Assembly: GCA_937890535.1 (NCBI GenBank)
Contig: CALBXK010000362.1
Span: 1 to 32,637, forward strand
Direction of reading: 5' to 3'
DNA from: an uncultured Spartobacteria bacterium
Lineage (GTDB): Bacteria; Verrucomicrobiota; Verrucomicrobiia; Chthoniobacterales; Terrimicrobiaceae
DNA: 32,637 nt
Shown: piece after piece, positions 10,373 through 31,624 of the stretch
How the letters are laid out: each line of letters opens with the position of its first letter
Numbering within the stretch: position 1 is the first letter of the stretch
Program-made: the position numbers and the translations under genes
Notes under the pieces: model-generated
Database searches by the model: none
Seen by the model: the letters and a program-made list of their open reading frames with translations, nothing else
Told to the model about the DNA's origin: nothing

Positions 10373-11707
10373 TTAAGGTTTATTTCCCCGCATACGCAGA
10401 AAGGTGGGAACGTCAAGGTCCTCGCCCTCCACGATGGTGGGTTCGCTCTTTTCGAAGCGTCCCCGGGCCACAGATTCAAACTGAAGAGTTTCCTGTTTCG
10501 ATTTTGGAGCCGGCTTGGTTCGGGGACGGGGCTTGGCGTCGACGGACGGTGACCGGACCGGCGCGACCGGACGATTGTCCGGTTCACTGGGTTCGGGAAA
10601 GAGAGGCTTCGGCTCCTCCCCGGATGGGGGCGCTGTCTCCTCGATCGGGAGAGGTCGGGGTTTCCGCTTCGGTTCGGATGCGGGTGCGATTTGTGTCGAT
10701 GGCTCCGTTGAACGCCGGGGCGTCGCCACCGGATCCCCTCCGGCTTCGCGGTCATAATTGCCAAGAATTGTCACCTGAACCGGCGTCGACGGATCGGAGG
10801 CGGTGGTGACGCCGAGAAACACGTTTGCCGCATCGGCGACATGTTTCGTCACGCCGCGCATGATTGCCGCCACCTCGGCGAAGGCGAAGGAGGGCGGGCC
10901 GGAAAGGTGAACCACCACCGCATGGCTTTCGTTGAGCAGACGGCCCCGGTCCAACAACGGACTCTTCAACGCCACCTCCAGAGCCTCGTGGGCGCGATTG
11001 TCTCCTGTAGCCGTGCCTTGGCCAAAGAGCGCTCGGGAGGTCCCCCCTCCCAGGGCGGACAGCAGATCCGTAAGACCGACCGGCAGGGGAGCGCCTCCTC
11101 CCAGAATCCCCGCAAGAGAGGCGACGCACGACAAGAGGGTCGCATCTGCGGCGGCAAAAGTTTCCTCAATTCCTGATCGCGGACCCGCCAACTCCGCCAT
11201 GCGATCATTTTCAAAGTGAATCACGGCATCGGACTGCCGCCCCAGGGCTCCCAGTGCTTCCGCGGCCTGGGCATTGCGACGGCGGCCTTCAAAACTGAAG
11301 GGCGAAGTGAAGAGGCTGAACACCATCACCCCGGATTCCCGCGCCATCTCAGCCACTACCGGTGCGACGCCTGACGCGGTGCCTCCCCCGAGACCACCGC
11401 AGAGAAAAATAAGATCCACGTCCTTCATGAGATCGCGGATTTCACCGAGGGATTCCTGGGCCGCCTGATACCCGATCTCGGGATCTCCGCCGGCCCCCAG
11501 CCCACGGGTCACCTTGGGGCCCAGGGCCAACTTCTGCGTAACAACCGAGGACGTGAGGGATTGGGCATCCGTATTCATCACCACCACATCCGTGCCGGCG
11601 TCTCCGGACATCGCCAGCCGGTCAGCGAGGTGCACTCCGGCATTACCAATCCCCAGGATCCGAAGCCGAACCGTTGCGCTAGGGGAAGACCGTGGGTAAG
11701 AAATCAT
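10373..11707 (-). CDS. ftsZ: Cell division protein FtsZ, divergent
   Basis: Tubulin-like GTPase that forms the division ring. Numbering is from the ATG at 11707 (444 residues). The tubulin signature is GGGTASG (107-113), with NTDAQSL and GLGAGGDPE also present. The tail from about 325 is a Pro/Glu/Arg-rich linker ending in DVPTFLRMRG, a good match to the C-terminal peptide that binds FtsA. Several usually invariant residues differ: the glycine-rich T1 loop reads GIGNAGVH, the guanine-contacting Asn of T6 is Asp188, and in the T7 loop the Asn and first Asp are Pro209 and Gly211, with only Asp214 kept. A TTG at 11755 would add 16 residues and lies 5 bases after ftsA; neither start has a Shine-Dalgarno sequence. 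It is the last gene of the dcw cluster. Confidence 0.88.
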   Translation of the reverse strand: MISYPRSSPSATVRLRILGIGNAGVHLADRLAMSGDAGTDVVVMNTDAQSLTSSVVTQKLALGPKVTRGLGAGGDPEIGYQAAQESLGEIRDLMKDVDLIFLCGGLGGGTASGVAPVVAEMARESGVMVFSLFTSPFSFEGRRRNAQAAEALGALGRQSDAVIHFENDRMAELAGPRSGIEETFAAADATLLSCVASLAGILGGGAPLPVGLTDLLSALGGGTSRALFGQGTATGDNRAHEALEVALKSPLLDRGRLLNESHAVVVHLSGPPSFAFAEVAAIMRGVTKHVADAANVFLGVTTASDPSTPVQVTILGNYDREAGGDPVATPRRSTEPSTQIAPASEPKRKPRPLPIEETAPPSGEEPKPLFPEPSEPDNRPVAPVRSPSVDAKPRPRTKPAPKSKQETLQFESVARGRFEKSEPTIVEGEDLDVPTFLRMRGNKP

Positions 11708-11760: not shown

Positions 11761-12981
11761 TTAATTTCTACGTCGAAAAAATCCACTAATTTTTTCGACC
11801 ACGCTGCCCACCAGGCCGGCTTCCTCCTCCTCCGCGCGCTGGGCCTGGGCAAATTTAATCAATCCTATGGCGGTGGAGTATTGGGGATTGTTCAAGACGG
11901 ATTTCGGACCGGAGACTCCCGCATCGCGGGTCAACGCCACCGGCAGATCAAAAACCGATTCGGCGACCTCTTGGATATCCCGCATGAGGCTGCACCCGCC
12001 CGTGAGCACGACGCCTGCCCCCAAAGCATGCGGCGAGATTTCTTTTTCAACCTGGCGGCGAATGAGTTCAAAAATCTCGCGCACCCGGGCATGGATGATG
12101 GTGTTGAGCATCTCCCGCTCGATTTCTTTGCCGGAGAACCCGGCATCATTTTTTAGGACGATCATCGCTCCCGGAGTGGCCGACCCAATTTTGGCGGACC
12201 CTTCCTCACATTTGAGGCGTTCGGCCCGGGTGAGAGGAATCCGGAGTCCCATGGAGATGTCGTTGCTGATGTGGTCTCCCCCGACGGCCAGCACTCCGGA
12301 GTGCCGCACCACCCCGCCTTCATAGACAATGTAGTCGGTAACCCCGCCGCCGATGTCGATAACGACGGCGCCAAGATCCTTCTGATGTTGGTCGAGGGCC
12401 GCCTGCGCCGAGGCCAGCGAATTCACCACCACCTCTTCAATCTCAATCCCGTTCTCGCGAATACTGCGCAGGGTATTTTGCAGGCGGGTCTTCACCCCAT
12501 GTACGATATGAAAATCCGCCTCCAGCTTACGGCCCATCAGGCCGACCGGATTGAGCACCCCGGCCTGCCCATCGACAAAATAATGTTGGATGATCGAGTG
12601 CAGGAAATGATTTTCCGAGGGGATGTTGACCTCACGGGCCTTGATCGCGACCTCATTAACATCCTCCTCGTCAATCTCGAAGCGATCCTCGGGAATGATG
12701 ATCTCTCCCCGGCTGTTGAAGCTGCGAATGTGTCCGCCGGTCACCGCCACAGAGACGCTGACAATCTCGGCGTCGCTATTGGTTTCAGCCTCAGCGAGAG
12801 CATCATGAACGCACTCGGTCGCAATCGCCAAATCGACAATCTCTCCTTTGCGCACGCCCCGCGAGGGCGCCATTCCGATTCCCAATATTCGCAAGGTTCC
12901 TTCGCGGCCACTTTCGCCCACCGCCGCACAGACCTTGGTGGTTCCCACCTCGACGCCCACAAATATATCCTGCTTTGCCAT
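11761..12981 (-). CDS. ftsA: Cell division protein FtsA
   Basis: Actin-like ATPase of 406 residues that anchors FtsZ filaments to the membrane. The phosphate-binding loops are VGVEVGTTKVCAAV (residues 8-21) and VVIDIGGGVTDY, and the adenosine region is GVVLTGGCSLM. The FtsA-specific 1C subdomain lies between about residues 85 and 165. The C-terminal segment GLVGSVVEKISGFFRRRN is an amphipathic helix suited to membrane targeting. The start codon directly follows the ftsQ stop (TAAATG), and ftsZ follows. All expected sequence features of a working FtsA are present. Confidence 0.95.
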   Translation of the reverse strand: MAKQDIFVGVEVGTTKVCAAVGESGREGTLRILGIGMAPSRGVRKGEIVDLAIATECVHDALAEAETNSDAEIVSVSVAVTGGHIRSFNSRGEIIIPEDRFEIDEEDVNEVAIKAREVNIPSENHFLHSIIQHYFVDGQAGVLNPVGLMGRKLEADFHIVHGVKTRLQNTLRSIRENGIEIEEVVVNSLASAQAALDQHQKDLGAVVIDIGGGVTDYIVYEGGVVRHSGVLAVGGDHISNDISMGLRIPLTRAERLKCEEGSAKIGSATPGAMIVLKNDAGFSGKEIEREMLNTIIHARVREIFELIRRQVEKEISPHALGAGVVLTGGCSLMRDIQEVAESVFDLPVALTRDAGVSGPKSVLNNPQYSTAIGLIKFAQAQRAEEEEAGLVGSVVEKISGFFRRRN

Positions 12982-13911
12982 TTAGTATTTTTTCTCCGCC
13001 CCGATTCCACCCGAGGGCACTGCCGCCACCACAAAAGTCACTGGCGTGTTCCGTTTCACCATGAGATTCACTGTATTGAGGGTTCGACCGGACTCATCGC
13101 AATGCACCAGCAGTTGTTGCAGGCGGTATAATTGCCCATCGAAGTCGTCGGTTCCAAAAAGAATGTGAGCATTATGGTCACTGACAACCTCAAGACAATA
13201 CCCCCGGGAGATATTAAGGGTCCTGATCCGCAATCGACCATTGGGATTCTTCGCCACCCTGTCGATCAACTCCAGAGCCAGCCGCAGATCCTCGCCAGGC
13301 AAAATGTCGCCGGCGCTGATGTTGTCACTCTGGACCCCATAAATGGCGGGAAGATGAAAATATTCCGGGAGGACATGTCTCGGACGCATGAGGAAACCTC
13401 CAGCATCGACCAGGAGCGATTTTTCCGAGGCCGAAGGATCCCCGGTTTCGCCATCTGGGGCCACCCAGGCGACCGGTTTGCGGGCGATGAGGGAAATCGA
13501 GAGTTGATCCGGCAGTTTCCGCTCGACGCAGACTGATTCGATCTGGGGAAACTCGAGAAGAGCCGCTTTCACCCGGCCGAGATCCACCGAAAATATATTG
13601 CCACCCTCATGGAGCCCGGTGGCGTCCAGAGCTTCTTCCCGCGTCAGGACGCGATCGAGGTCAAGCGTGATGAGACGCAGCGAATAGGCCGTATTTTCGA
13701 AAAAGAAGCGATCAAGAGCGGCACAGGAGCCAAAGAACAACGCCGCGCCCATAACGATGATCATGAAGAGGCTCCAAATCCAGCGGGCGACTTTTTCATG
13801 CCTTCGCCGACGAGCGGTGGACGAACGAATCCGCACGTCGAGCACATGGTCGCGGGACGAAGTCCGGCGGGCCCGACGATTGACTTTTCGAACTGTTCGA
13901 CGTGGAGGCAT
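12982..13911 (-). CDS. ftsQ: Cell division protein FtsQ/DivIB
   Basis: A bitopic divisome protein of 309 residues. An unusually basic cytoplasmic N-terminus (about residues 1-43, rich in Arg) precedes a single membrane segment (about 44-64). A POTRA-like region follows (about 78-146: ITLDLDRVLTREEALDATGL, then IESVCVERKLPDQLSISLIARKPVAWV), then the beta domain. FtsQ links the early ring to FtsL and the FtsW-FtsI synthase. It abuts ddl upstream and ftsA downstream, both as TAAATG. No separate ftsB is seen in the window. Confidence 0.9.
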   Translation of the reverse strand: MPPRRTVRKVNRRARRTSSRDHVLDVRIRSSTARRRRHEKVARWIWSLFMIIVMGAALFFGSCAALDRFFFENTAYSLRLITLDLDRVLTREEALDATGLHEGGNIFSVDLGRVKAALLEFPQIESVCVERKLPDQLSISLIARKPVAWVAPDGETGDPSASEKSLLVDAGGFLMRPRHVLPEYFHLPAIYGVQSDNISAGDILPGEDLRLALELIDRVAKNPNGRLRIRTLNISRGYCLEVVSDHNAHILFGTDDFDGQLYRLQQLLVHCDESGRTLNTVNLMVKRNTPVTFVVAAVPSGGIGAEKKY

Positions 13912-14829
13912 TTACTTATTTTTAGATCGTTGCAGGGAGATCGTGGCGATCCGCGCGCAAAGGGCAGGAAAATCCATTCCAACAACTGCCGCCGCCTTAG
14001 GAAGCAAGCTGGTTTCTGTCATTCCAGGAATGGTATTGATCTCCATGATATTTAAACGCCCATCCGGCGCGAGCAGAAGATCAACCCGCGAATAGATTTC
14101 GAGCCCGAGGGCGCGATGGGCCGCCAGCGAGGCTTCCTGGATGGTCCCGGTCAGCTCAGCACCGATCGCAGCCGGAACAAAATAGTCCGAGGCTCCCTTG
14201 GTGTACTTATGCTCGTAATCATAAAAGCCCTCGTGAGGGACAATCTCGACAATCGGGAGCGCCTCTCCGCCCAGAATCCCCACCGTGAGCTCCCGCCCGA
14301 CAAAAAATTCCTCCACCAACACCTGGTCTCCGAATTGGAAACAATCGGTGAGTGCGGACGTCAGTCCGGCCTGATCGCGAACGATGTGCACGCCAACACT
14401 GGAGCCCTGCAAGGGTGCCTTGACCACACAGGGCGGAGGGAAGCTGCAGGGATCGTTCACCCGCAGGACCTCCCATTTCGCGGTGGGGAGACCGACGGCC
14501 GCAAATCGTTCCTTGCTCAAAATTTTGTCAAAGGCAATCCGGCTTCCCTCGACGCCCTCGCCGGTGTAGGCGATTCCGCGGTCCTCGAGAATTTGTTGAA
14601 TCTGCCCATCTTCACCGAAGGTGCCATGAATCATATTGCAGGCCAGCTCGGTGTCGTCGGGAAGCCGGAAATCCGGCCCCTTCACGTCCACCTCAAGGAC
14701 GTCAGCGCCGCAAGCCCGCAAGGCTCCGGCCACGGCCACTCCTGAGCGTAAGGATACTTCGCGTTCGGTCCCAGGCCCTCCCATGAGCACCGCAATTTTA
14801 AGTCCGCCAATCGAAGGTTCCCCACTCAT
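13912..14829 (-). CDS. ddl: D-alanine--D-alanine ligase
   Basis: ATP-grasp ligase of 305 residues that joins two D-alanines for the UDP-MurNAc-pentapeptide. Motifs include LMGGPGTEREVSLRSG at the N-terminus, HGTFGEDG (68-75), KAPLQGSSVGVH for ATP binding, FYDYEHKY for the omega loop and MEINTIPGMTETSL for metal and substrate binding. The Tyr in the loop and the SSVG serines expected for a D-Ala (not D-lactate) enzyme appear intact. The start overlaps the murC-murB stop as ATGA, and GGGGGAGGA just upstream is a good ribosome site inside the preceding gene. Length is standard. Confidence 0.95.
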   Translation of the reverse strand: MSGEPSIGGLKIAVLMGGPGTEREVSLRSGVAVAGALRACGADVLEVDVKGPDFRLPDDTELACNMIHGTFGEDGQIQQILEDRGIAYTGEGVEGSRIAFDKILSKERFAAVGLPTAKWEVLRVNDPCSFPPPCVVKAPLQGSSVGVHIVRDQAGLTSALTDCFQFGDQVLVEEFFVGRELTVGILGGEALPIVEIVPHEGFYDYEHKYTKGASDYFVPAAIGAELTGTIQEASLAAHRALGLEIYSRVDLLLAPDGRLNIMEINTIPGMTETSLLPKAAAVVGMDFPALCARIATISLQRSKNK

Positions 14830-17111
14830 GCGTCCTCCCCCACGATTTGCACTTCCGTTTCCAGAGTGATGCCCCGACTTTTCGCTGCGGCGGCCTGGAT
14901 CTCTCCGATCAACGAGAGGATCTCCCCGGCGGTGGCCCCGCCATCATTGACGATGAAATTGCCATGGACTTCGGAAACCCGGGCCCGGCCGATGGAATAA
15001 TTCTTAAGCCCGAGTTCCTCGATCAATTGCCCGGCGGGAATCTGGCTGGGGTTCTTGAAAATGCAGCCCGCACTGGCGGCAATGGGTTGCGACTTCCGGC
15101 GATTGAATTCGCTTTGCTCCAAACGGACACCAATTTCCGTCGGGCTGGTAGGAGTTCCGCGCAGGGTCGCAGAGAGAGCATAGTTTCGCCGCAGGGTCGG
15201 CACATCCCGATACCGAATCTCCATTTCTTCCGGGGTGCGGGTAAAAACATTTCCATCCTCATCGCAATACCGCACCTGTTCGACCTGGCCAAAAGTTTCG
15301 AGACCCATGGCCCCCGCATTCATCCGCAGACTGCCGCCGAGGTTGCCCGGAATTCCTTCCATCCATTCAAATCCTCCAAGTCCGGCATGGCGGGCAATGG
15401 CAGTGATTTGTTTAAGCTTGAGTCCGACACCGGCGGTGATTTTATTGCCATTCACCTCGTGACGGGCAAACTCGCCCTTGGACAAATGGACCACGACTCC
15501 AGGGATCCCGCCGTCCCGCACCAGAAGATTGGATCCCCGTCCGATCACCAGCAAGGGCAGTTCTTTGTCGGCGCAATGGCAGACGAGGTCGGTGAATCCT
15601 TCCTCGGTCTCGGGTTCTGCCCAGAATCGAGCCGGCCCTCCGACCCGCATTGTGGTATGGCGCGAAAGCGGTTCGTAGAGCCGGATCGAGCCGGGGCCCA
15701 TGACTTCCTGAAGTTCATCCCTCACCATGAGATCCGTCCTCAGGCGGGCTTCCGCCTCGTGAATATTTCCTGCTCCCAGACTGAGAACCAAATCGCCGTC
15801 CTTCAAGGCGGCTCCCACCGCACGATGGATGGTCAAAATATCCGGATGCGAAAAGGCACCTGCATGCCCGTGGGTTTGCAGGGCGTCGACCACCGTTCCC
15901 CCGGACACCCCGGGAATCGGCAACTCCCCCGCAGGGTAAACATCCCCGATAAAGACCAGATCCGCCCCGTCGAAGGCGCGGCCAAAGTCCTCCGCCAGGG
16001 CCAAGGTCCGGCTGTAGCGATGGGGTTGAAACATGACCAAAACCCGTTTCCAGCCTCCGGTGCGGGCCGTGGCAATGGTGGCTGCGATCTCGGTGGGATG
16101 GTGGCCGTAATCGTCCACGAGAAGATTTCGCTTCGTCGCATGCCGGATCTCAAAGCGCCGCTTGGCACCGCGAAATTCCGTCAAAGCCGCCGCGATCCGC
16201 TCGAAGGGCAGCCCGATCTCGGTGGCCATGGCAATGACCGCCAGGGCGTTCATGGCATTGTGACCTCCGGGAATTCCGAGGGAAACCTCTCCCAGCCGCT
16301 CGTCACCTCTCCAAACGGAAAACTGAGCCTGAAAATTCTGGGTGACCAGATCCGACAATCGATAGCGCGAATCCGCTCCCGCACCATAACTGATGGCCCG
16401 CGGATGGAGGCCACAAACCCTCCTGGCTCCCGCGTCGTCGCCACAGTAGATCACCAGCCCCGCCGTCTGGGCAATCAAGCGAGAAAAGACCTCATCAATG
16501 GCGGCCAAATCTGGGTAAAAATCGAGATGTTCCGCTTCAATATTGAGGATGATCGCATGCTCGGGATGATAATTAACCAGGGTTCCGTCACTTTCATCGC
16601 CCTCGGCCACGAAGAACTCGCCCTCGGAATCCCAGCGTGCATTAGTTCCCAGGATGGGAATCTCCGCCCCAACATAATGAGATGGTTTCAGCCCCCCGAT
16701 ACGTAGCACATGTGCGGTCATTGCGGAGGTGGTCGTCTTCCCATGAGTCCCGCCAATCACGATCCCCTTCTTCGCCTTCATAATGGCGGCGAGGGCTTCG
16801 GCCCGGCGGACCAGCGGACGCCCCAGACGCTTCGCTTCGTCAAAGGCAATATTTCCGACCCTGATGGCCGACGAGTAGATGACCAGATCCGCATCCCGCA
16901 CCTCCCCGGCCTCATGCGGGATATGAAACTTCAGGCCCTTCTTTTGCAGGCGCACCACCTCGGCCGTATCGACGCGATCCGATCCGCTCACCATGTGGCC
17001 CAGAGCCACGGCCAAGCCCGCCAGACCACTCATCCCTGAACCCGCCACCCCAATGAGGTGCACCCGGCGGGGTGCCCCGGCAAAAAATTCAGTCAGCTCG
17101 GCGGAGGTCAT
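14826..17111 (-). CDS. murC: MurC-MurB fusion: UDP-MurNAc--L-alanine ligase / UDP-enolpyruvyl-GlcNAc reductase
   Basis: One 761-residue frame carries two enzymes of peptidoglycan precursor synthesis. Residues 1 to about 455 are MurC: VHLIGVAGSGMSGLA, GGTHGKTTT (121-128 as P-loop), EGDESDGT, GGHNAMNALA and DDYGHHPTEI. Residues from about 474 are MurB, the FAD enzyme acting just before MurC: GRGSNLLVRDGG, WMEGIPGNLGGSLRMNAGA, SAGCIFKNP and a C-terminal ETEVQIVGE with the catalytic Glu. Cys683 stands where MurB usually has the proton-donating Ser. No stop or frame change lies between the halves. GGAGGG precedes the ATG, which overlaps the murG stop as ATGA; the end overlaps ddl as ATGA. The fusion could channel UDP-MurNAc between active sites. 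Confidence 0.95.
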   Translation of the reverse strand: MTSAELTEFFAGAPRRVHLIGVAGSGMSGLAGLAVALGHMVSGSDRVDTAEVVRLQKKGLKFHIPHEAGEVRDADLVIYSSAIRVGNIAFDEAKRLGRPLVRRAEALAAIMKAKKGIVIGGTHGKTTTSAMTAHVLRIGGLKPSHYVGAEIPILGTNARWDSEGEFFVAEGDESDGTLVNYHPEHAIILNIEAEHLDFYPDLAAIDEVFSRLIAQTAGLVIYCGDDAGARRVCGLHPRAISYGAGADSRYRLSDLVTQNFQAQFSVWRGDERLGEVSLGIPGGHNAMNALAVIAMATEIGLPFERIAAALTEFRGAKRRFEIRHATKRNLLVDDYGHHPTEIAATIATARTGGWKRVLVMFQPHRYSRTLALAEDFGRAFDGADLVFIGDVYPAGELPIPGVSGGTVVDALQTHGHAGAFSHPDILTIHRAVGAALKDGDLVLSLGAGNIHEAEARLRTDLMVRDELQEVMGPGSIRLYEPLSRHTTMRVGGPARFWAEPETEEGFTDLVCHCADKELPLLVIGRGSNLLVRDGGIPGVVVHLSKGEFARHEVNGNKITAGVGLKLKQITAIARHAGLGGFEWMEGIPGNLGGSLRMNAGAMGLETFGQVEQVRYCDEDGNVFTRTPEEMEIRYRDVPTLRRNYALSATLRGTPTSPTEIGVRLEQSEFNRRKSQPIAASAGCIFKNPSQIPAGQLIEELGLKNYSIGRARVSEVHGNFIVNDGGATAGEILSLIGEIQAAAAKSRGITLETEVQIVGEDA

Positions 17112-18220
17112 GGTCGGCGCCCTCCGGGAACGGCCGCTTCGATTTCATCGGCCACATTCTCGGCCGCATTGCGTGGCAGAAGGGCCCGGGCGGCGGCGGA
17201 CATTTCCTGACGACGCCCGTCATTGGCCAGAAGATTGGCAATGAGGGCGGCAAAGGCCTCCGGCACCACTTCGGGTTCCCGTTGCAGTTCCGCCGCCCCG
17301 CCATTCACGAACACGTTCGCATTGTGGGTCTGGTGGTCATCGGTCGCAAACGGATAGGGGATCAGTACTGAGGCGAGGCCAAATTGGGAAAGTTCGCTCA
17401 GGCTCGCAGCCCCGGCGCGGGACACAACGAGGTCGGCGGCGGAAAGCACCTCCTCCATCCGATGATGAAAGGGGGCGACATAGTGAGGAATATTCTCCCG
17501 TTGATAATTTGCCGCCGCCAGCCGGTCATCGCGGTCACCCGTCAGGTGGATAATCTGGAGCGATTCCCGACCCAGAAGGGGAGCACATTTGAAAAGAATC
17601 TGATTGATGCCCGAAGCCCCCTGACTACCTCCCATGACGAGCAATGTCTTGCGCTCAGGATCGAGCCGAAAGGTCGCCAACGCCGCCTTACGATCCATCG
17701 GCGCGCCCAGGTCGCGACGAACGGGGGTCCCAGTCACAACACAATTGCGCCCGGGAAAAAGCGCCTCACATTCGGAAAATCCGAGCAGGACTTTCGTCGC
17801 AAAACGGGCGGTAAACTTATTGGCCCGTCCGGGAATGGCATTGGACTCATGAATAAAGGTGGGCAGACGTCGCAAACGGCCGGCCAGAATCGGAGCCGTG
17901 GAGGTGAATCCCCCCATGCCCAGAACCACTGCGGGCCGAAATTTATGATAGGCACGGCGGCAGGTCCCGAGACTCTCCCACGAACGACGCAAAAATCGAA
18001 TGAAGGCCGGGGAAAGCACCGAAGGCATTCCGATGGATGGCAATTTCTCGGCCCTAAAATCCGGATGCGCCTTGAGGGCGAGCGTATCGATTTCCTTCTC
18101 GGAAACAAACAGCATCACCTCATGTCCGCGCGCCTTGAGGGCCTCGGCCACGGCGAGGCCCGGGAACAAATGTCCCCCGGTGCCACCACAGGCAATCACG
18201 ACGCGAAAGGATGGGGTCAT
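17108..18220 (-). CDS. murG: UDP-GlcNAc--lipid I GlcNAc transferase MurG
   Basis: GT-B fold transferase of 370 residues from the chosen start. It adds GlcNAc to lipid I on the inner membrane face to make lipid II. Motifs are RVVIACGGTGGHLFPGLAVAEAL at the N-terminus, GMGGFTSTAPILAG, HESNAIPGRANK, VMGGSQGASGIN and VSRAGAASLSEL, plus the UDP-sugar-binding IPYPFATDDHQTHNA. The frame is open upstream to 18442, but the ATG at 18220 overlaps the ftsW stop as ATGA and places the GGTGGH loop near the N-terminus as in all MurGs. It sits between ftsW and murC. Confidence 0.95.
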   Translation of the reverse strand: MTPSFRVVIACGGTGGHLFPGLAVAEALKARGHEVMLFVSEKEIDTLALKAHPDFRAEKLPSIGMPSVLSPAFIRFLRRSWESLGTCRRAYHKFRPAVVLGMGGFTSTAPILAGRLRRLPTFIHESNAIPGRANKFTARFATKVLLGFSECEALFPGRNCVVTGTPVRRDLGAPMDRKAALATFRLDPERKTLLVMGGSQGASGINQILFKCAPLLGRESLQIIHLTGDRDDRLAAANYQRENIPHYVAPFHHRMEEVLSAADLVVSRAGAASLSELSQFGLASVLIPYPFATDDHQTHNANVFVNGGAAELQREPEVVPEAFAALIANLLANDGRRQEMSAAARALLPRNAAENVADEIEAAVPGGRRP

Positions 18221-19359
18221 AATTTGCACGAACTCCGGATCGCCCGCATAGCCGGGGCCAGGTTCTCCGCAAGCGGATTTCCATGGCGGTAAATATTCAC
18301 AAGGATGCCGATCATAAAATAGCAGATGGCCAGATTGGAACCGCCAAAACTTATAAAAGGCAGGGGCATTCCCTTGTTGGGCATCAAGGAGGTGGTCACG
18401 GCAATATTCACCACAGCCTGCAGGGAAATCATCATCACGCATCCAAAGCCCAACAGCATCCCAAACCGGTCGCGGGCATTAGTCGCCACAATGATGCCGC
18501 ACAGACAAACAAGGAGATAACCGAAGACCGTCAGCAAGGTCAGGCGCAAGCCGAGTTCCTCTCCGATCATGGGAAAAATAAAATCGGTATGAGCGTAGGG
18601 GAGGTAGAGGAATTTTTGCCGACCATCGCCGAGCCCCAGACCATCCAAGCCACCGGAACCGAAAGCGATGAGGGCCTGCCATTGCTGGAGTCCTTCTCCG
18701 AGCCGGAATTTTTCCGGATGCATAAACGCCAACACCCGACCCATTCGTTCATCGATCTGGCTGACAAGGGCAAAGGCCCCGGCCAAACCGACAACACTCA
18801 TCAGGGTCAGCCACCGCAAGCCTGCCCCGCCCACGAACATGACAGTGAGGGCGGTAACGCCAACGAGCGCACTGGTGCCCAAATCCACTTCACATAAAAT
18901 CGGAACGATCAGCACTCCCAGAATCATCAGAGGAAAAACAATTCCAGGTAAGAATTTTCCCACCTGTTTTTCATAACGATCATACCACCAAGCCACGAAA
19001 AACAACGCCGCCACTTTCGCAAGTTCGCTGGGCTGAAACGTGACCGGCCCGAGATTCAACCAGCGGCTTGAGCCATTAATACGCTGCCCAAAGGGAGAGA
19101 CGAAACAAAGAAGCAGGAGGACCACTGCCCCCGCAAAAAATACCCACCAGGTTTTTTTCCACCAGTTGGTGTCGATGCAGGCTGCAACCATCGCCCCGAC
19201 TGTCGCGACGCCCAACCAGGCAACCTGGCGTTTGACGAAAAAATAGATGTCGCCATGACTTTCCTGCGCAAAGGCACTGGTGCTAAAAAGCATAATCACC
19301 CCAAGGGCGGTGAGGCCCGCCACGGAGAGCAGGAGGATGGAGATGGCGTTTCGATGCAT
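18217..19359 (-). CDS. ftsW: Lipid II polymerase FtsW
   Basis: SEDS-family peptidoglycan glycosyltransferase that works with FtsI at the septum. It is 380 residues long with about ten membrane segments. Family landmarks are TFQPSELAK, GLGDGRQKFLYLPYAHTDFIFPMIGEELG (with the essential loop Asp) and MPNKGMPLPFISFGGS. The chosen ATG at 19359 gives MHRNAISILLL directly before the first membrane helix. A TTG at 19404, 3 bases after the LysM gene's stop, would add 15 residues; neither has a clear ribosome site. The 3' end overlaps murG by ATGA. Confidence 0.92.
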   Translation of the reverse strand: MHRNAISILLLSVAGLTALGVIMLFSTSAFAQESHGDIYFFVKRQVAWLGVATVGAMVAACIDTNWWKKTWWVFFAGAVVLLLLCFVSPFGQRINGSSRWLNLGPVTFQPSELAKVAALFFVAWWYDRYEKQVGKFLPGIVFPLMILGVLIVPILCEVDLGTSALVGVTALTVMFVGGAGLRWLTLMSVVGLAGAFALVSQIDERMGRVLAFMHPEKFRLGEGLQQWQALIAFGSGGLDGLGLGDGRQKFLYLPYAHTDFIFPMIGEELGLRLTLLTVFGYLLVCLCGIIVATNARDRFGMLLGFGCVMMISLQAVVNIAVTTSLMPNKGMPLPFISFGGSNLAICYFMIGILVNIYRHGNPLAENLAPAMRAIRSSCKL

Positions 19360-19407
19360 GGTGCACGGGGTCACAGGGAGGGCCCGTGCCCACCCCGCTT
19401 TCAATCA

Positions 19408-20283
19408 TTACCGCGGAATCTTTAATTTCTGTCCGATCTGAATCTTGGTCGGATCAGCGATCTCATTGATCTTGATCAGCTCGTTATAACTGACGCTTAA
19501 TTTTTTCGCGATGCTGTAGGGATTGTCGCCTTTCACGACCACATAGACACCGTCCACCAAGTCGCCGGTGGCACCCTGAGTCTTGGCCGATGCAACGGAA
19601 GCCGGCGCTGCGGGCACGACACTTCGGGTGGCAACAGCGGCAATGACGGCCTTCTTCGTCGTCACCTTGTCCCGAGTGGCCAGAAACGCGTGCTGGGCCG
19701 AAGTGGGCGCGGTGGTTGTTGACAATTCTTTTGTGGATTTCGCCGTCGCGGCAGGCGCGGACGGCTTGGCGGCGTCAGGAATTTTCAACACCTGTCCCAC
19801 TCGGATCATCGAATAGTCGTCGATCCCATTGACGCTTTCAATGGCGGCAATGGTGACTCCATAGCTACTGGCCACACGGGTAAGGGTATCGCCCGCTGCC
19901 ACAGTGTGAGTGCGTTTGTCCCATGTCGCTCCCTGAGGTCCTTGGGCCGAGGTGGCCGGGGCGGCGGATCTGGCCGTCACCGCCGGCGGGGCCGGTTCTG
20001 CCCGGTCGGTCGATTCGACCAAAGCCGTCCCACCCACTTTGTCCGCTTGGCGAGCCTTCATCCAGTTGAAGGCAAAAACCCCGCCGACGGCGACGAGATG
20101 CAGTACAAGTACAACAATCAGCGCGTGGGAGAACCTCATATTGGGTTCCTCGCCGTCCTCATAATCATCCTCATCGGCTTCGTTGATGGTGGCGGCTCGA
20201 GCACGCAATGGCTTGGCGGTTCGACTCCTCCCCTTCGCGGGGGTGGGTCGAAGCGGCATTCTTACGACTTTTTTGGTTTTCAT
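19408..20283 (-). CDS. Single-pass membrane protein with two LysM domains, inside the dcw cluster
   Basis: A 291-residue protein. The N-terminal part is basic then acidic (residues 1-50), followed by one membrane segment (about 54-74) and an exported portion. That portion has an Ala/Pro/Thr-rich linker, LysM 1 (126-169: HTVAAGDTLTRVASSYGV ... VGQVLKIP), a second linker (about 170-245) and LysM 2 (247-290: YVVVKGDNPYSIAKKLSV ... IGQKLKIP). LysM domains bind GlcNAc units of peptidoglycan, so it probably tethers the membrane to the wall, or guides wall synthesis, at the division site. There is no enzymatic domain. It overlaps murD by ATGA and lies before ftsW, so it is co-expressed with the divisome genes. 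It is not a standard member of the E. coli or Bacillus dcw set. Confidence 0.85.
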   Translation of the reverse strand: MKTKKVVRMPLRPTPAKGRSRTAKPLRARAATINEADEDDYEDGEEPNMRFSHALIVVLVLHLVAVGGVFAFNWMKARQADKVGGTALVESTDRAEPAPPAVTARSAAPATSAQGPQGATWDKRTHTVAAGDTLTRVASSYGVTIAAIESVNGIDDYSMIRVGQVLKIPDAAKPSAPAATAKSTKELSTTTAPTSAQHAFLATRDKVTTKKAVIAAVATRSVVPAAPASVASAKTQGATGDLVDGVYVVVKGDNPYSIAKKLSVSYNELIKINEIADPTKIQIGQKLKIPR

Positions 20284-21653
20284 ATCGATGGTATTTTCGG
20301 TTCGTTTTCTGAGATGATGGGCGAAACTTTCAAAGGCAGGGTGTTGACAAGATTCTTAAAGGCCGTGCCCCGCTCGCCGTAGTTGCGAAACATGTCGAAG
20401 GACGAAGTGCCGGGCGAAAACAATACGGTCTCACCTGGGCGGACAGCGGCGGCGGAAAGGGTCACCGCCTCCTCCAGGGATTCGGCCGTCTGGATTTCGA
20501 GCCCGGCACAAGCCCAGGCCTGATGAATGCGTTCCTTCATTTCGCCAATGAGAATGACCAGGCGCACCCGCTCCCGGATCAGGGGGGCAATGGTCTCGAA
20601 TCCAAATCCCTTATCCTTCCCTCCCGCGATGAGAACCAACGGACGATCCTGGGAGAGCAAGGCTTTCTCCAGGGCGTCGAGATTGGTCGCCTTGGAGTCA
20701 TTAATCCATCGAACCCCCTCCCGCTCGCGCACAAACTCGCACCGATGGACTGGCGCATGGTAATCGGTCACTGCTGCGGCCATGCGGTCCAGATCCGCTC
20801 CCAGAGCAACCCCCACCCCAAGGGCCGCCATGAGGTTCTCCGCATTATGCAGGCCCTGTAGCCGAATGGCCGCCTGATCAAGCACCGGCTCTCCCTGGTA
20901 ATGGATAACTTGGTCCCGAAGGGTGAAGTCGGCTTCCTCCGCGACCGCGCTAAAGGTGATGCGCCGGGCCGCCAGGACCGGCAGGGACTCACGGGCATTG
21001 ACGACGGCAAAATCCTCCTCCGTCTGCCGACGAAAAATTCGCAACTTCGCCTCACGGTATTCATCCATGTCCCGGTACCGATCCAGATGATTCGGGCTAA
21101 GGTTCAACCAGACCGCCACATGGGGACGGAAAACGCGGGTGCTTTCCAATTGAAAAGAACTGACCTCCAGCACCATCACGTCCAACACCTCGCTGCGACG
21201 CACCATAGTGGCAAATGGCAGCCCGATGTTCCCGCTGGCCGCTGCCCGCATTCCGGAACCGATGAGCATCGCGGTGGTCAATTCGGTTGTGGTGGTTTTA
21301 CCATTGCTGCCGGTGATCGCAACCACGGGGCAGGGACATTCCTCAAACGCCAGTTCGAGTTCGCCAATAATGGGAATGCCCTTCCTTACCACATTTTGCA
21401 CCAGAGGAACTGCCGGATCGATCCCCGGGCTGAGCACACAAATATCATACCGCGAGGGATCGCTGTCGGCTTCCGGTCCGAAACGCACCGCAATGCCCAA
21501 GCCCCCGAGCCGGGCCGCTTTCTCGCGGAGTTCCGCGTCGTCCCGGCTCTCACAAATTGTCACCCGGGCGCCCTCTTCCCGCAGAAGCAGGGCGGCTGCC
21601 TCGCCACTGTGACCCAGTCCCAAGACCACCGCATCTTTTCCAGAATAGATCAT
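20280..21653 (-). CDS. murD: UDP-MurNAc-L-alanine--D-glutamate ligase
   Basis: Mur ligase of 457 residues that adds D-Glu to UDP-MurNAc-L-Ala in the cytoplasm. Visible features are AVVLGLGHSGEAAALLL at the N-terminal Rossmann domain, SPGIDP, the P-loop ITGSNGKTTTTELT, VLEVSSFQLE, LNLSPNHLDRY, HNAENLMAALGV and NDSKATNLDALEKAL. The frame is open upstream to 21737 but the ATG at 21653 overlaps the mraY stop as ATGA and begins with MIYSGKDAVVLG, the usual start context. The stop overlaps the LysM gene start. No unusual residue was noted. Confidence 0.95.
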   Translation of the reverse strand: MIYSGKDAVVLGLGHSGEAAALLLREEGARVTICESRDDAELREKAARLGGLGIAVRFGPEADSDPSRYDICVLSPGIDPAVPLVQNVVRKGIPIIGELELAFEECPCPVVAITGSNGKTTTTELTTAMLIGSGMRAAASGNIGLPFATMVRRSEVLDVMVLEVSSFQLESTRVFRPHVAVWLNLSPNHLDRYRDMDEYREAKLRIFRRQTEEDFAVVNARESLPVLAARRITFSAVAEEADFTLRDQVIHYQGEPVLDQAAIRLQGLHNAENLMAALGVGVALGADLDRMAAAVTDYHAPVHRCEFVREREGVRWINDSKATNLDALEKALLSQDRPLVLIAGGKDKGFGFETIAPLIRERVRLVILIGEMKERIHQAWACAGLEIQTAESLEEAVTLSAAAVRPGETVLFSPGTSSFDMFRNYGERGTAFKNLVNTLPLKVSPIISENEPKIPSI

Positions 21654-22780
21654 CGAAGTTTCAGGGTGGCGAGGCCGAGAAGGGCAAACAATACGGACAT
21701 GATCCAAAAGCGGACGATGACGGTATTTTCCTTCCAACCGCTGAGTTCAAAATGATGATGGATCGGAGCCATCTTGATGATGCGGCGCCCGGTGAGCTTG
21801 AAGCTGACGACCTGCATGATGACCGAGAGGGCTTCGATGACAAAGACGCCACCCACAATCACGAGCAGCACTTCCTGTTTGCAGCAAATCGCCACTGCTC
21901 CCAGCATCCCGCCAATCGCGAGAGACCCGGTGTCACCCATAAAAACCCTCGCCGGATGAGCATTCCACCAAAGGAATCCCAAACAAGCCCCGAGGAGCGC
22001 CGAACACACCACCGCCAGTTCATCGGAAAATGCGACGTAGGGGATCTGCAAATATTCCGCCGCTTTGACATTTCCCGCCAGATAGGCGATCGCCGCATAG
22101 GCGGCCGCCACCGTGGCGGTGCAGCCGGTGGCCAAGCCATCCAGGCCATCGGTAAGATTCACCGCATTGGAGGTCCCCACGATGACCAGGAGATAGAAAA
22201 TAAAAGTGAAGCCACCCAGGCTCACCACGAGGGGATCCTTGAAAAATGGAATGTAGAGCGTTTGGGCGAGAGCGGAAGATTCCGGATGGGTGAGGAAAAA
22301 GGTGGTGAAGATTCCGGCCAGCACACATTGGAGACCAAACTTCAAGCGGCTGCTGATGCCCTTCGAATCTTTCTTTGTCACCTTCAACCAGTCATCATAA
22401 AACCCGATGCCTCCCAGAAACAACGAACTGAAGAGAACCAGCCACACATAGGGATTATCCGGACGCGCCCAGAGCAGGACCGAGATCAGGATCGAACCGA
22501 TGATGAGAAGCCCGCCCATGGTGGGCGTACCATTTTTTGCGCCGTGGAGTTCGAACAACTTGTGCACCTCTTCCTTGCTGCGAATCGGTTGCCCGAACTT
22601 GAGCGAGATGAGTTTGCGGATGACCAAGTTGCCAAAAATAATCGAAATGAGGAACGCGGTGGCCGCCGCACAAATCGAACGGAAGGTCAGGTATTTAAAG
22701 ACGTTCAATGCCTTTAGAAATTCCGACTCATTGCCTTGGCTTTGGGCCCATCCGGCCAGTTCATAAAGGTAATACAACAT
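21650..22780 (-). CDS. mraY: Phospho-N-acetylmuramoyl-pentapeptide transferase MraY
   Basis: Polytopic inner membrane enzyme, 376 residues with about ten membrane segments. It moves phospho-MurNAc-pentapeptide onto undecaprenyl phosphate to give lipid I. Signature sequences are KNGTPTMGGLLI, GFYDDWLKV (the DD pair), NAVNLTDGLDGLA, ARVFMGDTGSLAIGG and APIHHHFELSGW (the HHH loop). The start shares one base with the murF stop (TGATG), and the stop overlaps murD. Length agrees with the family. Confidence 0.97.
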   Translation of the reverse strand: MLYYLYELAGWAQSQGNESEFLKALNVFKYLTFRSICAAATAFLISIIFGNLVIRKLISLKFGQPIRSKEEVHKLFELHGAKNGTPTMGGLLIIGSILISVLLWARPDNPYVWLVLFSSLFLGGIGFYDDWLKVTKKDSKGISSRLKFGLQCVLAGIFTTFFLTHPESSALAQTLYIPFFKDPLVVSLGGFTFIFYLLVIVGTSNAVNLTDGLDGLATGCTATVAAAYAAIAYLAGNVKAAEYLQIPYVAFSDELAVVCSALLGACLGFLWWNAHPARVFMGDTGSLAIGGMLGAVAICCKQEVLLVIVGGVFVIEALSVIMQVVSFKLTGRRIIKMAPIHHHFELSGWKENTVIVRFWIMSVLFALLGLATLKLR

Positions 22781-24144
22781 CAGTTTTCGAAAGTATGAAT
22801 CACGCGCTCCATCCGGGTTCCGCGGCTGCCCTTGACCAAGACCACATCCCCTTCATGGGCGAGGGAGCGCAGGAGATCGGCGGCCTCATCGACATCCCCC
22901 GCCAGGTGGATATCCCCCAGCCCGGCCTCGCGGGCGGCATCGTGAAGAACGCCAGTTTCCGGTCCCACGGCGATCAGGGTATTCACGGTTTGCGCCGCCG
23001 CCCGACCGACGCGGCGATATCCATCGCCGGCATGAGAGCCCAACTCGCCCATCCCGCCGAGAACCGCGATCCGGCGTCCCCCGGTCGGCAGGGCACTCAG
23101 GGTTTGCAAGGCGGCTTCCATCGAGTCTGGGTTGGCGTTGTAAGTGTCGTCCCATAGAGTGATGCCCCGGATTTGCCGACGCATCAGACGTCCGCCGGTG
23201 AGACGGACGGTGGCCAGCGCTTCGCAGCATTCCTCAATACTAACCCCAAACTCGAGGCCAGCGGCCACGGCCAAAAGCGCATTGGCCACCATGTGCCGAC
23301 CGGGCACCGCCAATCGGGCAGGAAGACTCTCCTCCTCTGCGTGCAGAGTAAAGCGAACCCCGTCCTCCGTCACCTGGACGTCGGAAGCGGTGACGGATCC
23401 GGAGGAAAATCCTGCCCGGATGACACGTCCCCTCGCCCGGGAAGCCAAACGTTCCACAAAGTCATCTTCGGCAGGAAGCACCACCACTCCCTCTGATGGA
23501 ACGGCCTCGGCCAGGTCCCCTTTTTCATCTGCGATGGCTTCCCGGGAACCCATGTGTTCCATGTGGGCGACGCCAATATTGGTGATAATAGCCAGGTCGG
23601 GCCGGGCCAGGGCGGCCAGGGGTGCGATTTCGCCGGGATGATTCATCCCGATCTCCCACACCGCAGCATCGTCTGCCGTGGAAGCAGCCAAAATGGAAAG
23701 GGGAAGCCCGATATGATTGTTCAGATTGCCTTCGGTTTTCACCACCTGGTATCGGGCAGAAAAGATCGCGGCCACAAATTCCTTGGTGCTGGTCTTGCCG
23801 CTGCTGCCGGTGATGCAGGCCACCTTGAGTGCCAATCGGTCCCGCCAGGAAGAGGCCAGCCGCTGCAATGCCTCCAGAGAATCCCTGACCACAATGGCCG
23901 GAAATTCCGACGGCAACTGGTCAAGAACGGCCGCGTCGTCAACAAGGACGGCAGCAGCCCCCAACTCGGCGGCCTTGGGGGCATGATGATTCCCGTCGTG
24001 GTTGGGTCCCCGCAGAGCCAGATAAAGATCTCCCGGCTTCAGGGTGCGGGTGTCTTTGGAAAAAGTACGAATGAGCTGACTGTTCGAGCCCAGGGCCGAT
24101 CCGCCGCACATTTCTGCAATCTCAGGAAGAGGAAGGGCGTTCAT
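22780..24144 (-). CDS. murF: UDP-MurNAc-tripeptide--D-alanyl-D-alanine ligase
   Basis: Mur ligase of 454 residues that adds the D-Ala-D-Ala made by Ddl. It has an N-terminal substrate domain (DTRTLKPGDLYLALRGPNHDGN), a P-loop ITGSSGKTSTKEF, GNLNNHIGLPLS, WEIGMNHPGEI, a TNIGVAHMEHMGS stretch and a DDTYNANPDSMEAAL region with VLGGMGELG. The start overlaps the murE stop as ATGA, with GGAGG and GAGGAA just upstream as ribosome site candidates. Predicted to work on meso-DAP-containing substrate, given the upstream MurE type. Confidence 0.95.
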   Translation of the reverse strand: MNALPLPEIAEMCGGSALGSNSQLIRTFSKDTRTLKPGDLYLALRGPNHDGNHHAPKAAELGAAAVLVDDAAVLDQLPSEFPAIVVRDSLEALQRLASSWRDRLALKVACITGSSGKTSTKEFVAAIFSARYQVVKTEGNLNNHIGLPLSILAASTADDAAVWEIGMNHPGEIAPLAALARPDLAIITNIGVAHMEHMGSREAIADEKGDLAEAVPSEGVVVLPAEDDFVERLASRARGRVIRAGFSSGSVTASDVQVTEDGVRFTLHAEEESLPARLAVPGRHMVANALLAVAAGLEFGVSIEECCEALATVRLTGGRLMRRQIRGITLWDDTYNANPDSMEAALQTLSALPTGGRRIAVLGGMGELGSHAGDGYRRVGRAAAQTVNTLIAVGPETGVLHDAAREAGLGDIHLAGDVDEAADLLRSLAHEGDVVLVKGSRGTRMERVIHTFEN

Positions 24145-25631
24145 TCTTCCTCAACCTCCACCTGTTTGGCCGCGATGGCTCGCCGGGCCATCACTCCATC
24201 CTCAAAGGGGATTTTTCCCGCCGCTGATTCCTGGGTGCTTTCATGTCCTTTGCCGGCGATCAGAACGATATCGCCGGGTCCCGCCCGTTCCACTGCACGG
24301 TGAATCGCGGCCTCCCGGTCCACGATCTGCTCATGCTGATCGGTGCGAAATCCGGTTTCGATTGCATCAAGAATCTGCTGTGGATCCTCGGTGCGAGGAT
24401 TGTCTGAGGTGGAGATACACCAGTCGGAAAATTCCTCCGCCGCCGCCGCCATCAGCGGTCGTTTCGATTCATCCCGGTCGCCGCCGCAGCCAAAGACAGT
24501 GATCACCCGGACGGGTCTGAGATCCTTCAAGGCCCGCAGCACATTGCGGAGGGCATCGTCCGTGTGCGCGTAATCGACGAATACCTGAAAACTGCGCCGG
24601 GACGACACGCGTTCGAGACGACCGGGGACCTGCGGGGCGCTGGCCAGGGCAGCCACGGCGGAGCGCAATTCCATTCCCATTGCAGACACCGCAGCAAGCG
24701 CGGCCAAAGCGTTGGAAATATTATAGGCCCCGATGAGAGGAAGTCGCACCAAGTAGCTCCGGCCCTTCGCTTCGAGGTGAAAGGTACTCCCTGTGCCGTC
24801 ATACTTCGCATCGGTGGCTCGAAAATCGCAACTCGCCCCCAAGCCATAGGTCAGAACCGGAACCTTGCGGGCCAATCGATCCCGGAGCAGGCGCCCGTAG
24901 CGGTTGTCGATATTGATGATGGCGCGGGCCTTTTTCTTTAGCCCGGTACGGAGTCCGTCAAAGAGGCCCGCCTTGGCCTCAAAATAGGCCTCCATCGACT
25001 TGTGATAGTCGAGATGGTCCTGGGTGAGATTGGTGAAGACTGCGGTGTCGAAATCAATGCCCCGCACCCTGTGCTGCACAAGCGCATGGCTGGAAACCTC
25101 CAAGGCCACCGCCTTGGACCCGGCGGCAACAATCTGAGCCAGTAGATCCTGCAAATCGACCGATTCCGGCGTCGTGCGCGGAGCCTCAATCTCATCTTCG
25201 CCAATACAATATTTGATCGTGCCAAGAAGCCCGCAGCGCTTTTGATCTGCATCAAGAAGGTGTTTGATCAGAAAGGCCGTGGTGGTTTTCCCATTCGTAC
25301 CGGTCACTCCCATCACCTTGAGGGCCTGAGCCGGCGATCCGTGGAAGGAAGCGGCCATGTCCGCCATCGCGATCCGGGCCTCGGGGACCCGGATCTGAGG
25401 AAGCACGCAGGCCGCCAAGGCAGCGTCAGAGGCGACCGCAATCGCCCCCAGTTCGGCGGCCTGCGCGACAAATCGAGTTCCTTCCTGCCTGGCACCGCGG
25501 AGGGCAAAGAAGAGGGCTCCGGGCGTGGCCCGCCGCGAGTCATAGCAAAGCGATTCGACCCGCATCTGCGGGTCGGCGTCGGTTTCGAAGATCGCGGTCG
25601 AGGCGAGGAGCTGGGAAAGAGGCACACTCAT
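24141..25631 (-). CDS. murE: UDP-MurNAc-L-Ala-D-Glu--meso-diaminopimelate ligase
   Basis: Mur ligase of 496 residues that adds the third peptide residue. The P-loop is GVTGTNGKTTTAFL (near residue 111); TTPESVDLQ, ALEVSSHAL and FTNLTQDHLDYH follow. The amino acid-specificity motif is DNPR (410-413) within SDNPRTEDPQ, which in characterised MurE proteins marks selection of meso-diaminopimelate over lysine. The motif IVLIAGKGHESTQ is near the end. The start overlaps ftsI as ATGA, with AGGGGA a few bases upstream. The result predicts DAP-type peptidoglycan in this organism. Confidence 0.96.
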   Translation of the reverse strand: MSVPLSQLLASTAIFETDADPQMRVESLCYDSRRATPGALFFALRGARQEGTRFVAQAAELGAIAVASDAALAACVLPQIRVPEARIAMADMAASFHGSPAQALKVMGVTGTNGKTTTAFLIKHLLDADQKRCGLLGTIKYCIGEDEIEAPRTTPESVDLQDLLAQIVAAGSKAVALEVSSHALVQHRVRGIDFDTAVFTNLTQDHLDYHKSMEAYFEAKAGLFDGLRTGLKKKARAIINIDNRYGRLLRDRLARKVPVLTYGLGASCDFRATDAKYDGTGSTFHLEAKGRSYLVRLPLIGAYNISNALAALAAVSAMGMELRSAVAALASAPQVPGRLERVSSRRSFQVFVDYAHTDDALRNVLRALKDLRPVRVITVFGCGGDRDESKRPLMAAAAEEFSDWCISTSDNPRTEDPQQILDAIETGFRTDQHEQIVDREAAIHRAVERAGPGDIVLIAGKGHESTQESAAGKIPFEDGVMARRAIAAKQVEVEEE

Positions 25632-27409: not shown

Positions 27410-27780
27410 GGGCCGACTCCTCCGTTGGCGACCGTCCGCAGGATCCCATCTTCAATCGCCGTGGCCGGAGGAATTAAGCGGGCAATGCGGTGGTCCTGAA
27501 TGGGCCGCAAGGCAATGACGTGCCGTCCAATTTTACGCTGCAGTTCGGCCCGTGACGAGAGGGCCGAGATCCGGGCCAGCAGCACCTCATTATGCGATCG
27601 TGCCTCACGAATCTCCCGTTCGACCTGGCGGGTTTGTTCTCCAATGGCGTGTTGCTGGTTTTTGACATAGACAAACAACAGGCCGCAGGCTCCCACCACG
27701 ACGGCGAGGAGAAGCCATCGTGCCAGGGGGGCGAGATGAAGAGGATTGACTTGATTTCGGCGGTTGGCGGTACGGCTCAT
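27406..27780 (-). CDS. ftsL: FtsL-like divisome protein
   Basis: A 124-residue bitopic protein: basic N-terminus (1-20), one membrane segment (about 21-39), then a predicted coiled coil (about 41-85: GEQTRQVEREIREARSHNEV and the following heptads). FtsL proteins diverge strongly in sequence, so the call rests on size, topology and position between rsmH and ftsI. FtsL forms a complex with FtsQ and, where present, FtsB to activate FtsW-FtsI. It overlaps both neighbours by ATGA. Confidence 0.8.
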   Translation of the reverse strand: MSRTANRRNQVNPLHLAPLARWLLLAVVVGACGLLFVYVKNQQHAIGEQTRQVEREIREARSHNEVLLARISALSSRAELQRKIGRHVIALRPIQDHRIARLIPPATAIEDGILRTVANGGVGP

Positions 27781-28766: not shown

Positions 28767-28904
28767 TGCGGGGGCGGATAATAATAATGGCGTGACCGTG
28801 GGATTTTCCGTCGGGTGTCTTGGCGACGCGAAACCCAAAGGAATAATTCCGGCCAGATTTCGTCATCGGCAGCAGTCGGTCATGGGGTTGAGGGCGGCAT
28901 AAAG

Positions 28905-29354
28905 TTAGAGTCCAATAAGATCGGCGACCTGCTGGAGGGCCTCCATTTGTCCCGGTTTGGCGATGATGTGAGCCTCCCGGCTCCAAATTTCAAAACGGCT
29001 TCTTCCTCCGATGAAGACCACCTCCGAGCCCAGTCCGGTCCGTTCACAATGCTTGTCGTTCAAAAGCACCCGCCCCTGCTTGTCGGTCGTCACCTCATGC
29101 GAGCCGCCGAAAAATTCCCGAATCGCCCGCCGTTTTAACTTCGGATCGGCCACCGATCCCTTGATCTCCAACTCCTGGAGTTCGAACTCCTTGGGCGGCA
29201 TCACCACCAAATACTCTCCGGAAGGATGCGGAATGACATGGAAAGTCTGCCCCACTTCTCCATTCAGCCAGGACGCAGGCACGGCGACGCGCTTCTTAGC
29301 GTCCATGGAACGCTCGAAAGTTCCCGAGAAAAGCGTTGTTGATTCCTGACCCAT
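28905..29354 (-). CDS. mraZ: Transcriptional regulator MraZ
   Basis: A 149-residue MraZ with two AbrB-like swapped-hairpin domains. The first half contains the DAKKRVAVPASW motif and the second TTDKQGRVLLNDKH, both variants of the D-x-x-R-V/L motif. MraZ forms ring-shaped oligomers and binds repeats in its own promoter, repressing or tuning the dcw operon. Such repeats are visible just upstream (29371-29410). It is the first gene of the cluster and diverges from the gene at 29496. Confidence 0.95.
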   Translation of the reverse strand: MGQESTTLFSGTFERSMDAKKRVAVPASWLNGEVGQTFHVIPHPSGEYLVVMPPKEFELQELEIKGSVADPKLKRRAIREFFGGSHEVTTDKQGRVLLNDKHCERTGLGSEVVFIGGRSRFEIWSREAHIIAKPGQMEALQQVADLIGL

Positions 29355-29410: not shown

Positions 29411-29495
29411 CTTCCCTCAAGTGTCAACGGAAAAACCGCCAGCAGCCCAAGGATTTCCATTTACGGGAGCCGGGCCGAGGGCCTTTAATTTTGAT

Positions 29496-31623: not shown

Positions 31624-31624
31624 C

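Follow-up and report, generated by a model that had tools for sequence, protein, structure and literature searches.

Can an FtsZ that lacks part of the T7 catalytic loop still be the protein that divides the cell, and how would its GTPase site then work? Z-ring treadmilling is generally held to be powered, in all bacteria that use it, by the hydrolysis of GTP by FtsZ. The gene that raises the question lies in a 32,637-nucleotide stretch of DNA from an uncultured Spartobacteria bacterium (contig CALBXK010000362.1; hereafter the window), which we infer to belong in Chthoniobacterales. It occupies positions 10373–11707, as a preliminary description of the sequence had correctly stated; its strand, to be added to that description, is the minus strand, with the ATG at 11707, the stop codon ending at 10373 and 444 amino acids encoded.

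The encoded protein is an FtsZ ortholog by descent, as established jointly by its domains, its fold, the position of its gene after ftsA in the dcw cluster and its C-terminal peptide. Both expected domains were detected, Pfam Tubulin (PF00091) at 120.7 bits (cut-off 33) and FtsZ_C (PF12327) at 49.9 bits (cut-off 27), and an AlphaFold2 model, built with 43 relatives, contained the full FtsZ core at pLDDT >90, a value exceeded by 285 residues of the model. The top Foldseek matches to this model were exclusively solved FtsZ structures, the best in the PDB being M. tuberculosis FtsZ (1RLU, E 1.2e-35, TM-score 0.91 by target length). The protein ends in the FtsA-binding peptide EGEDLDVPTFLR (10376–10426, minus strand; EGEDLDVPTFLRMRGNK), where AlphaFold2 predicts a short helix at residues 435–441. 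At 223.5 bits, it scores below the cut-off of 295.2 set for the NCBIfam FtsZ equivalog TIGR00065; that cut-off governs naming and does not define the family, and Verrucomicrobiota as a whole fall short of it, with FtsZ found in 375 of 388 genomes of the phylum and the cut-off passed in 34 of the 388, compared with 79/80 in Bacteroidota.

To locate the changes, we compared individual residues in an alignment with E. coli K-12 FtsZ and relatives (Ec denotes E. coli numbering; all loop coordinates are on the minus strand). The nucleotide side is retained, comprising Asn45, Asp47 and Gln49 of T2, Gly73 of T3, T4, Glu140, Arg144 and Asn167, so that equivalents of S. aureus D46, Q48, R143 and G72 are present as D47, Q49, R144 and G73. 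Loop T1 (11627–11653; residues 19–27) reads GIGNAGVHL where E. coli has GVGGGGGNA, with Gly20 becoming Asn22, Gly21 Ala23, Gly23 Val25 and Asn24 His26. Asn at Ec20 occurs in 22/22 members of the window's GTDB family and generally not elsewhere, and His at Ec24 in 7/22. The T4 signature region (11366–11395; residues 105–114, GLGGGTASGV) is slightly altered, since Ec G109 is A111 and the resulting GGGTASG departs from the strict tubulin/FtsZ signature GGGTG[ST]G; the same Ala is found in 3/22 family members and Gly in the other 19/22. T5/H5 (11276–11302; residues 136–144, PFSFEGRRR) keeps Ec E138 and Ec R142 as E140 and R144, and T6 (11204–11212; residues 166–168, E-N-D) keeps Ec N165 as N167, with Ec P164 replaced by E166. 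At the guanine contact Ec N186, the window has Asp188 (11144–11146). The preliminary description gave this letter correctly and took it for an alteration, but it is an ordinary variant, Asp also being present at Ec186 in FtsZ of B. subtilis, P. aeruginosa and A. aeolicus and in 7/31 Bacteroidota; its oddity is an impression gained from taking E. coli as the yardstick, and we rejected altered guanine specificity because Asp is common here.

The T7 loop (11066–11092; residues 206–214, APLPVGLTD) is a different matter. Asn207 of E. coli is replaced by Pro209 and Asp209 by Gly211, and only Asp212 is retained, as Asp214, which leaves P-x-G-x-x-D in place of the N-x-D-x-x-D of canonical T7-catalysing FtsZ. 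The window protein is thereby an FtsZ ortholog that does not qualify as a canonical T7-catalysing enzyme. The same replacement, with Asp214 standing alone, had been read from the sequence in the preliminary description, as had the change of GGGGGN to GNAGVH in T1, and both readings were confirmed by the alignment. That description had also named a shifted T7 register as a finding that would overturn it. We looked for such a shift and excluded it, as the multiple alignment and four pairwise alignments to solved chains (9V7V, A. aeolicus 2R6R, B. subtilis 2VAM and P. aeruginosa 2VAW) are gap-free near T7, the pairwise ones all in the same register. Since, in addition, the state recurs in dozens of independent assemblies, including that of the isolate Chthoniobacter flavus Ellin428, an alignment or sequencing artefact, for which we found nothing in favour, is next to impossible.

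Could the gene instead be a decayed or accessory copy, with another FtsZ or another filament dividing the cell? The sub-threshold TIGR00065 score would fit such a copy, as would the state of the assembly (3.70 Mb in 410 contigs, 93.6% complete), but a search of this 93.6%-complete genome for the second FtsZ that the preliminary description had asked about found none with the two Pfam models PF00091 and PF12327, each of which gave one match, to the window ftsZ in both cases. The sole weak extra match (contig C204) falls inside an open reading frame that, on our reading of its sequence, resembles a GxG-type oxidoreductase. Relatives that are 95–100% complete likewise carry one FtsZ of the same type, and an FtsZ match was present in 38/39 relatives, including all that are >90% complete. 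The gene is under strong purifying selection, as indicated by an omega of 0.057–0.20 among close relatives, and it is the terminal gene of an intact dcw cluster. Directly upstream lies ftsA (11761–12981, minus strand; TIGR01174, 353.7 bits, cut-off 175.85), a neighbour that adjoins FtsZ in 165/173 loci of the phylum and 21/22 of the family. The rest of the cluster (12982–29354, minus strand), reading upstream, consists of ftsQ, ddl, a murC-murB fusion, murG, ftsW, a LysM protein, murD, mraY, murF, murE, ftsI, a small open reading frame at the place of ftsL, mraW and mraZ, in which murD, murE and murF were assigned by gene order and Pfam Mur ligase domains. Omega and synteny led us to reject decay; a decayed or accessory copy is largely refuted and highly improbable. 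The view of the preliminary description that this is the working FtsZ is upheld by synteny, selection, fold, the C-terminal peptide and the outcome of the search for a second gene.

The T7 state is not confined to one organism. Neither Asn207 nor Asp209 is retained in any of the 22 FtsZ sequences of the window's GTDB family, whereas Asp212 is retained in 21, a distribution that places the state beyond chance. Across the window's order (n = 39), Asn207 and Asp209 are absent in 39/39, with an acid at Ec212 in 37; T7 reads H-I-G-F-D-E in C. flavus Ellin428 and P-V-G-L-A-D in Spartobacteria bacterium LR76. We therefore surveyed the phylum by a profile search of the 388 genomes and aligned 173 FtsZ from 86 families. 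Because these comprise one to a few sequences per family, with some families over-represented, the counts describe a spread sample and are not population frequencies: N-x-D-x-x-D is retained in 12/173 (12 families), compared with 31/31 Bacteroidota controls; the 30 Bacteroidota loci were the best-scoring ones, though all 79 lay above the cut-off. Residue by residue, Asn207 is present in 66 of the 173, Asp209 in 103 and Asp212 in 74; both T7 acids occur in 24, exactly one in 140 and none in 9. All six residues named as conserved between species in the S. aureus structural study (PMC8936486) are found together in 5/173, compared with 30/31 controls. The earlier framing as the altered FtsZ of one organism was therefore right about the alteration and too narrow in its scope, the state being order-wide in a phylum where 12/173 are canonical.

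Quick trees built with the T7 columns removed resolved two groups with opposite losses (families are given by our codes for GTDB families, such as f12 and f13). Clade 1 unites the window's order with f14 and f17, two Verrucomicrobiales-like families that share its loss of Asp209, and has an SH-aLRT support of 98 under a mixture model; Asp209 is lost throughout, and Asp or Glu is retained at 212. Clade 2 (SH-aLRT 100) comprises f13, f16, f20, f21 and f26, of the same class as the window, and retains Asp209 but has lost Asp212 to Thr, Ala or Ser; Asn207 is mostly retained there (37/37 in f13, f16, f20 and f21). An Opitutales-type FtsZ of this class, with a T7 of N-L-D-F-A-T, likewise has Asp209 but no Asp212. 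Other families have lost Asn207 alone or the residue at 212 alone. The minimum numbers of changes on a 106-row tree are 12 at position 209, 13 at 212 and 16 at 207. Given this clade pattern and these counts, the window's T7 loop is an old state of its order, set within repeated and differing losses across the phylum.

In a few families, among them f12 (of the window's order), f15 and f44, both acids and parts of T4 are missing. Three f12 sequences (L160, L162, L165) have a broken T4 (GGLGGETASFL, GGLGGDFGSTF) and also lack Asp209 in T7, which takes the erosion one step further. In f15 (L169, L170, L173; genomes of 2.3–2.5 Mb, two of them single-contig), FtsZ is highly degenerate: T4 reads GGTTGSEL, GGAMGSAG or GLAGATGATV, and no N-x-D-x-x-D can be recognised in T7. 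GTP binding itself may be altered. Thirteen of the 388 genomes gave no FtsZ match at E 0.001, six of them in f44 (G227, G265, G301, G346, G371, G404), whose remaining members carry a very eroded FtsZ; these 13 are possible real losses of FtsZ. Second genes are also found. In three genomes (L200, L201, L202), the additional gene is tubulin-like but distant, encodes the motif STGGGTGNG, differs in its T7 region and probably represents an FtsZ-like family rather than FtsZ; two Bacteroidota genomes have a divergent second FtsZ beside the canonical one (G465:C111:24137-25105; G488:C69:1826-2725).

How the window's GTPase site might work can be approached through the known roles and mutants of other FtsZs, on which the mechanism below is modelled. 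In S. aureus filament structures, D210 (Ec D209) swings the attacking water into place; N208 (Ec N207) is the K+-binding residue of T7 and touches the residues at Ec Asp45 and Gln47; and D213 (Ec D212), R143 (Ec Arg142) and G72 (Ec Gly71) stay put and hold the water (PMC8936486). Read against this scheme, the window FtsZ would have lost the water-swinging and K+-binding functions and kept the water-holding residues. We consider it probable that the protein is a working FtsZ in which the composite GTPase site has been remodelled around a single T7 carboxylate and hydrolyses GTP slowly without a T7 K+ ion. GTP would still drive filament formation, and water held by Asp214, Arg144 and Gly73 of T3 would allow hydrolysis to continue at a low rate. 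The T7 loop would no longer depend on K+ and would owe its shape to two prolines (Pro207 and Pro209) in place of a bound ion. All 22 members of the window's family have Pro207, and 15 of them have Pro209; sister families have Arg, His, Lys or Asn where this family has a T7 proline, making the idea of a proline brace family-specific. Owing to slow hydrolysis, ring turnover would be slow, making the ring less a fast-treadmilling filament than a scaffold that serves FtsA and the synthesis of the septal wall.

Slow hydrolysis is compatible with division in E. coli, where the D212G protein has <1% GTPase activity and forms rings that do not treadmill (PMC7320174), yet is reported to be functional in division (PMC4383033). 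Within the phylum, V. spinosum divides by binary fission and its ftsZ is essential (PMC12283558). Two counter-points weigh on the other side. Z-ring condensation in B. subtilis requires treadmilling (PMC8079713), and S. aureus N208L and D210N each abolish assembly (PMC8936486), which implies that the window's loss is no plain point change and that the interface must differ further or compensate. In these laboratory mutants (E. coli D212G and D212A, S. aureus D210N and N208L), T7 residues are likewise gone, but one at a time, and D212G polymerises into static rings; the window, in contrast, lacks two residues naturally, retains D212 and represents an old, fixed state.

If the site compensates fully, the GTPase would run at normal speed, the lost residues being replaced by the acid at E166, by changed interface residues and, in sister families, by an acidic Ec211. 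Ec164 is indeed Glu or Asp in 45/45 clade-1 sequences (E166 in the window) compared with Pro in 30/32 controls, Ec263 has changed from Asn to His in 34/45, and Gly in place of D209 accompanies an acid at 211 in 20/32, compared with 8/141 otherwise, a pairing seen in sister families. Both couplings nevertheless disappeared in independent-pair tests on the tree, which control for relatedness and gave no support for the Ec164 acid, the Ec211 acid or any single acidic or basic column as compensation; we rejected these candidates as clade signatures, not repeated couplings, in spite of their very strong raw associations. None of the 22 sequences of the window's family has an acid at 211, and Ec164 neighbours the guanine contact in sequence and not the gamma-phosphate. 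A normal-speed enzyme is thus rather doubtful, though a serious competitor to the slow single-carboxylate site. As a separate observation, Ec47 is the position of the Gln by which S. aureus FtsZ locks its T7 K+; in 44/173 sequences, from several lineages, Lys or Arg stands there instead, namely Arg in f14 and f17 and Lys in part of f16 and f20 (L034–L063, L092–L101). Judged from the alignment, such a side chain might stand in for the K+ ion; it also occurs alongside an intact T7, and the window retains Gln.

At the opposite extreme, hydrolysis would be wholly lost and FtsZ would form a static GTP- or GDP-bound scaffold, remodelled by FtsA, wall synthesis or proteolysis. Members of f12, f15 and f44 without both acids and part of T4 still keep the gene, and E. 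coli D212G divides (PMC4383033), as this explanation would have it. The retention of Arg144 and Asp47 in 22/22 members of the window's family speaks against it, as does the distribution of T7 acids, in which one carboxylate is seemingly retained; here the raw exclusion of double loss is strong, but it is not significant once relatedness is controlled, and we rejected a rule that at least one acid must stay. Overall, complete loss is improbable, and slow hydrolysis on one carboxylate remains the reading that we favour.

Set beside known systems, the window protein shares with canonical FtsZ of E. coli, B. subtilis and S. aureus the fold, a single dcw gene after ftsA, the T2–T5 GTP-binding loops, Glu140 and Arg144, the C-terminal FtsA-binding peptide and the long linker; it differs in T1 (Gly20 to Asn, Asn24 to His) and in a T7 missing both the Asn for K+ binding and the catalytic Asp that swings, at 31% identity over the core. 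V. spinosum FtsZ (PMC1845146, PMC12283558) is likewise verrucomicrobial, very divergent and encoded in a dcw cluster, with a GGGTGSG-type T4 and an essential role; it has 673 residues (PMC1845146), compared with 444 and a linker of normal length in the window. FtsZ in f17 has about 600–690 codons and a T7 of K-L-G-L-D-D or R-M-G-I-A-D, and from the resemblance in length we infer that V. spinosum shares this T7 state. FtsZl1 and FtsZl2 (Makarova and Koonin 2010, PMC2875224) also belong to the FtsZ-tubulin superfamily and have divergent features, but sit outside dcw clusters, whereas the window protein is encoded within one, carries FtsZ_C and ends in the FtsA peptide.

That verrucomicrobial FtsZ is divergent has been reported before (PMC1845146, PMC9871819, PMC12283558). 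V. spinosum FtsZ was published as a 'canonical FtsZ' in 2007 with no mention of loops or catalysis (PMC1845146), and the T7 loop is unmentioned in both V. spinosum papers (PMC1845146, PMC12283558). Outside Pilhofer et al. 2008, the principal early survey of ftsZ in the phylum, which may remark on T7, our literature search found no published report of T7 residue loss in verrucomicrobial FtsZ. Elsewhere, conservation between species has been stated for D46, Q48, R143, N208, D210 and D213 (PMC8936486), and a review holds N208 and D210 to be conserved in every FtsZ-bearing bacterium (PMC8456036). With an FtsZ that is ftsA-adjacent, essential where tested and in possession of the six residues in 5/173 sequences, Verrucomicrobiota offer a natural experiment on the need for T7 chemistry, and whether division requires GTP hydrolysis by the T7 mechanism becomes testable in culturable species. 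As the sole FtsZ lacks two of the three key T7 residues and such losses are nearly phylum-wide, the division ring of these bacteria may differ from the textbook one in how it works. More tentatively, and with the odds against so broad a claim, essential Z-rings across Verrucomicrobiota could run without canonical T7 chemistry, lineages having dropped different parts of the triad, with treadmilling slow or dispensable; this loosening could then form the background to the loss of FtsZ in the sister phyla Planctomycetota and Chlamydiota, and would bear on how FtsZ could vanish in related FtsZ-less phyla. Inhibitors of FtsZ that target the region of T7 may also act differently in these bacteria.

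Several further features of the locus were observed. ZapA, as a possible partner in filament dynamics, was not matched by PF05164 in the window genome; it is absent from many bacteria, and its absence here is uninformative. Upstream of mraZ lie two plus-strand open reading frames of about 400 amino acids (29421–30626 and 30730–31890), with no Pfam match at 1e-5. Within the dcw cluster, the LysM-domain protein (19408–20283) sits between ftsW and murD, and the murC-murB fusion gene (14826–17111) represents a known verrucomicrobial trait. On the other side of ftsZ, a bactofilin gene (PF04519; 9585–10361) is convergent with it, 12 bases off the ftsZ stop codon.
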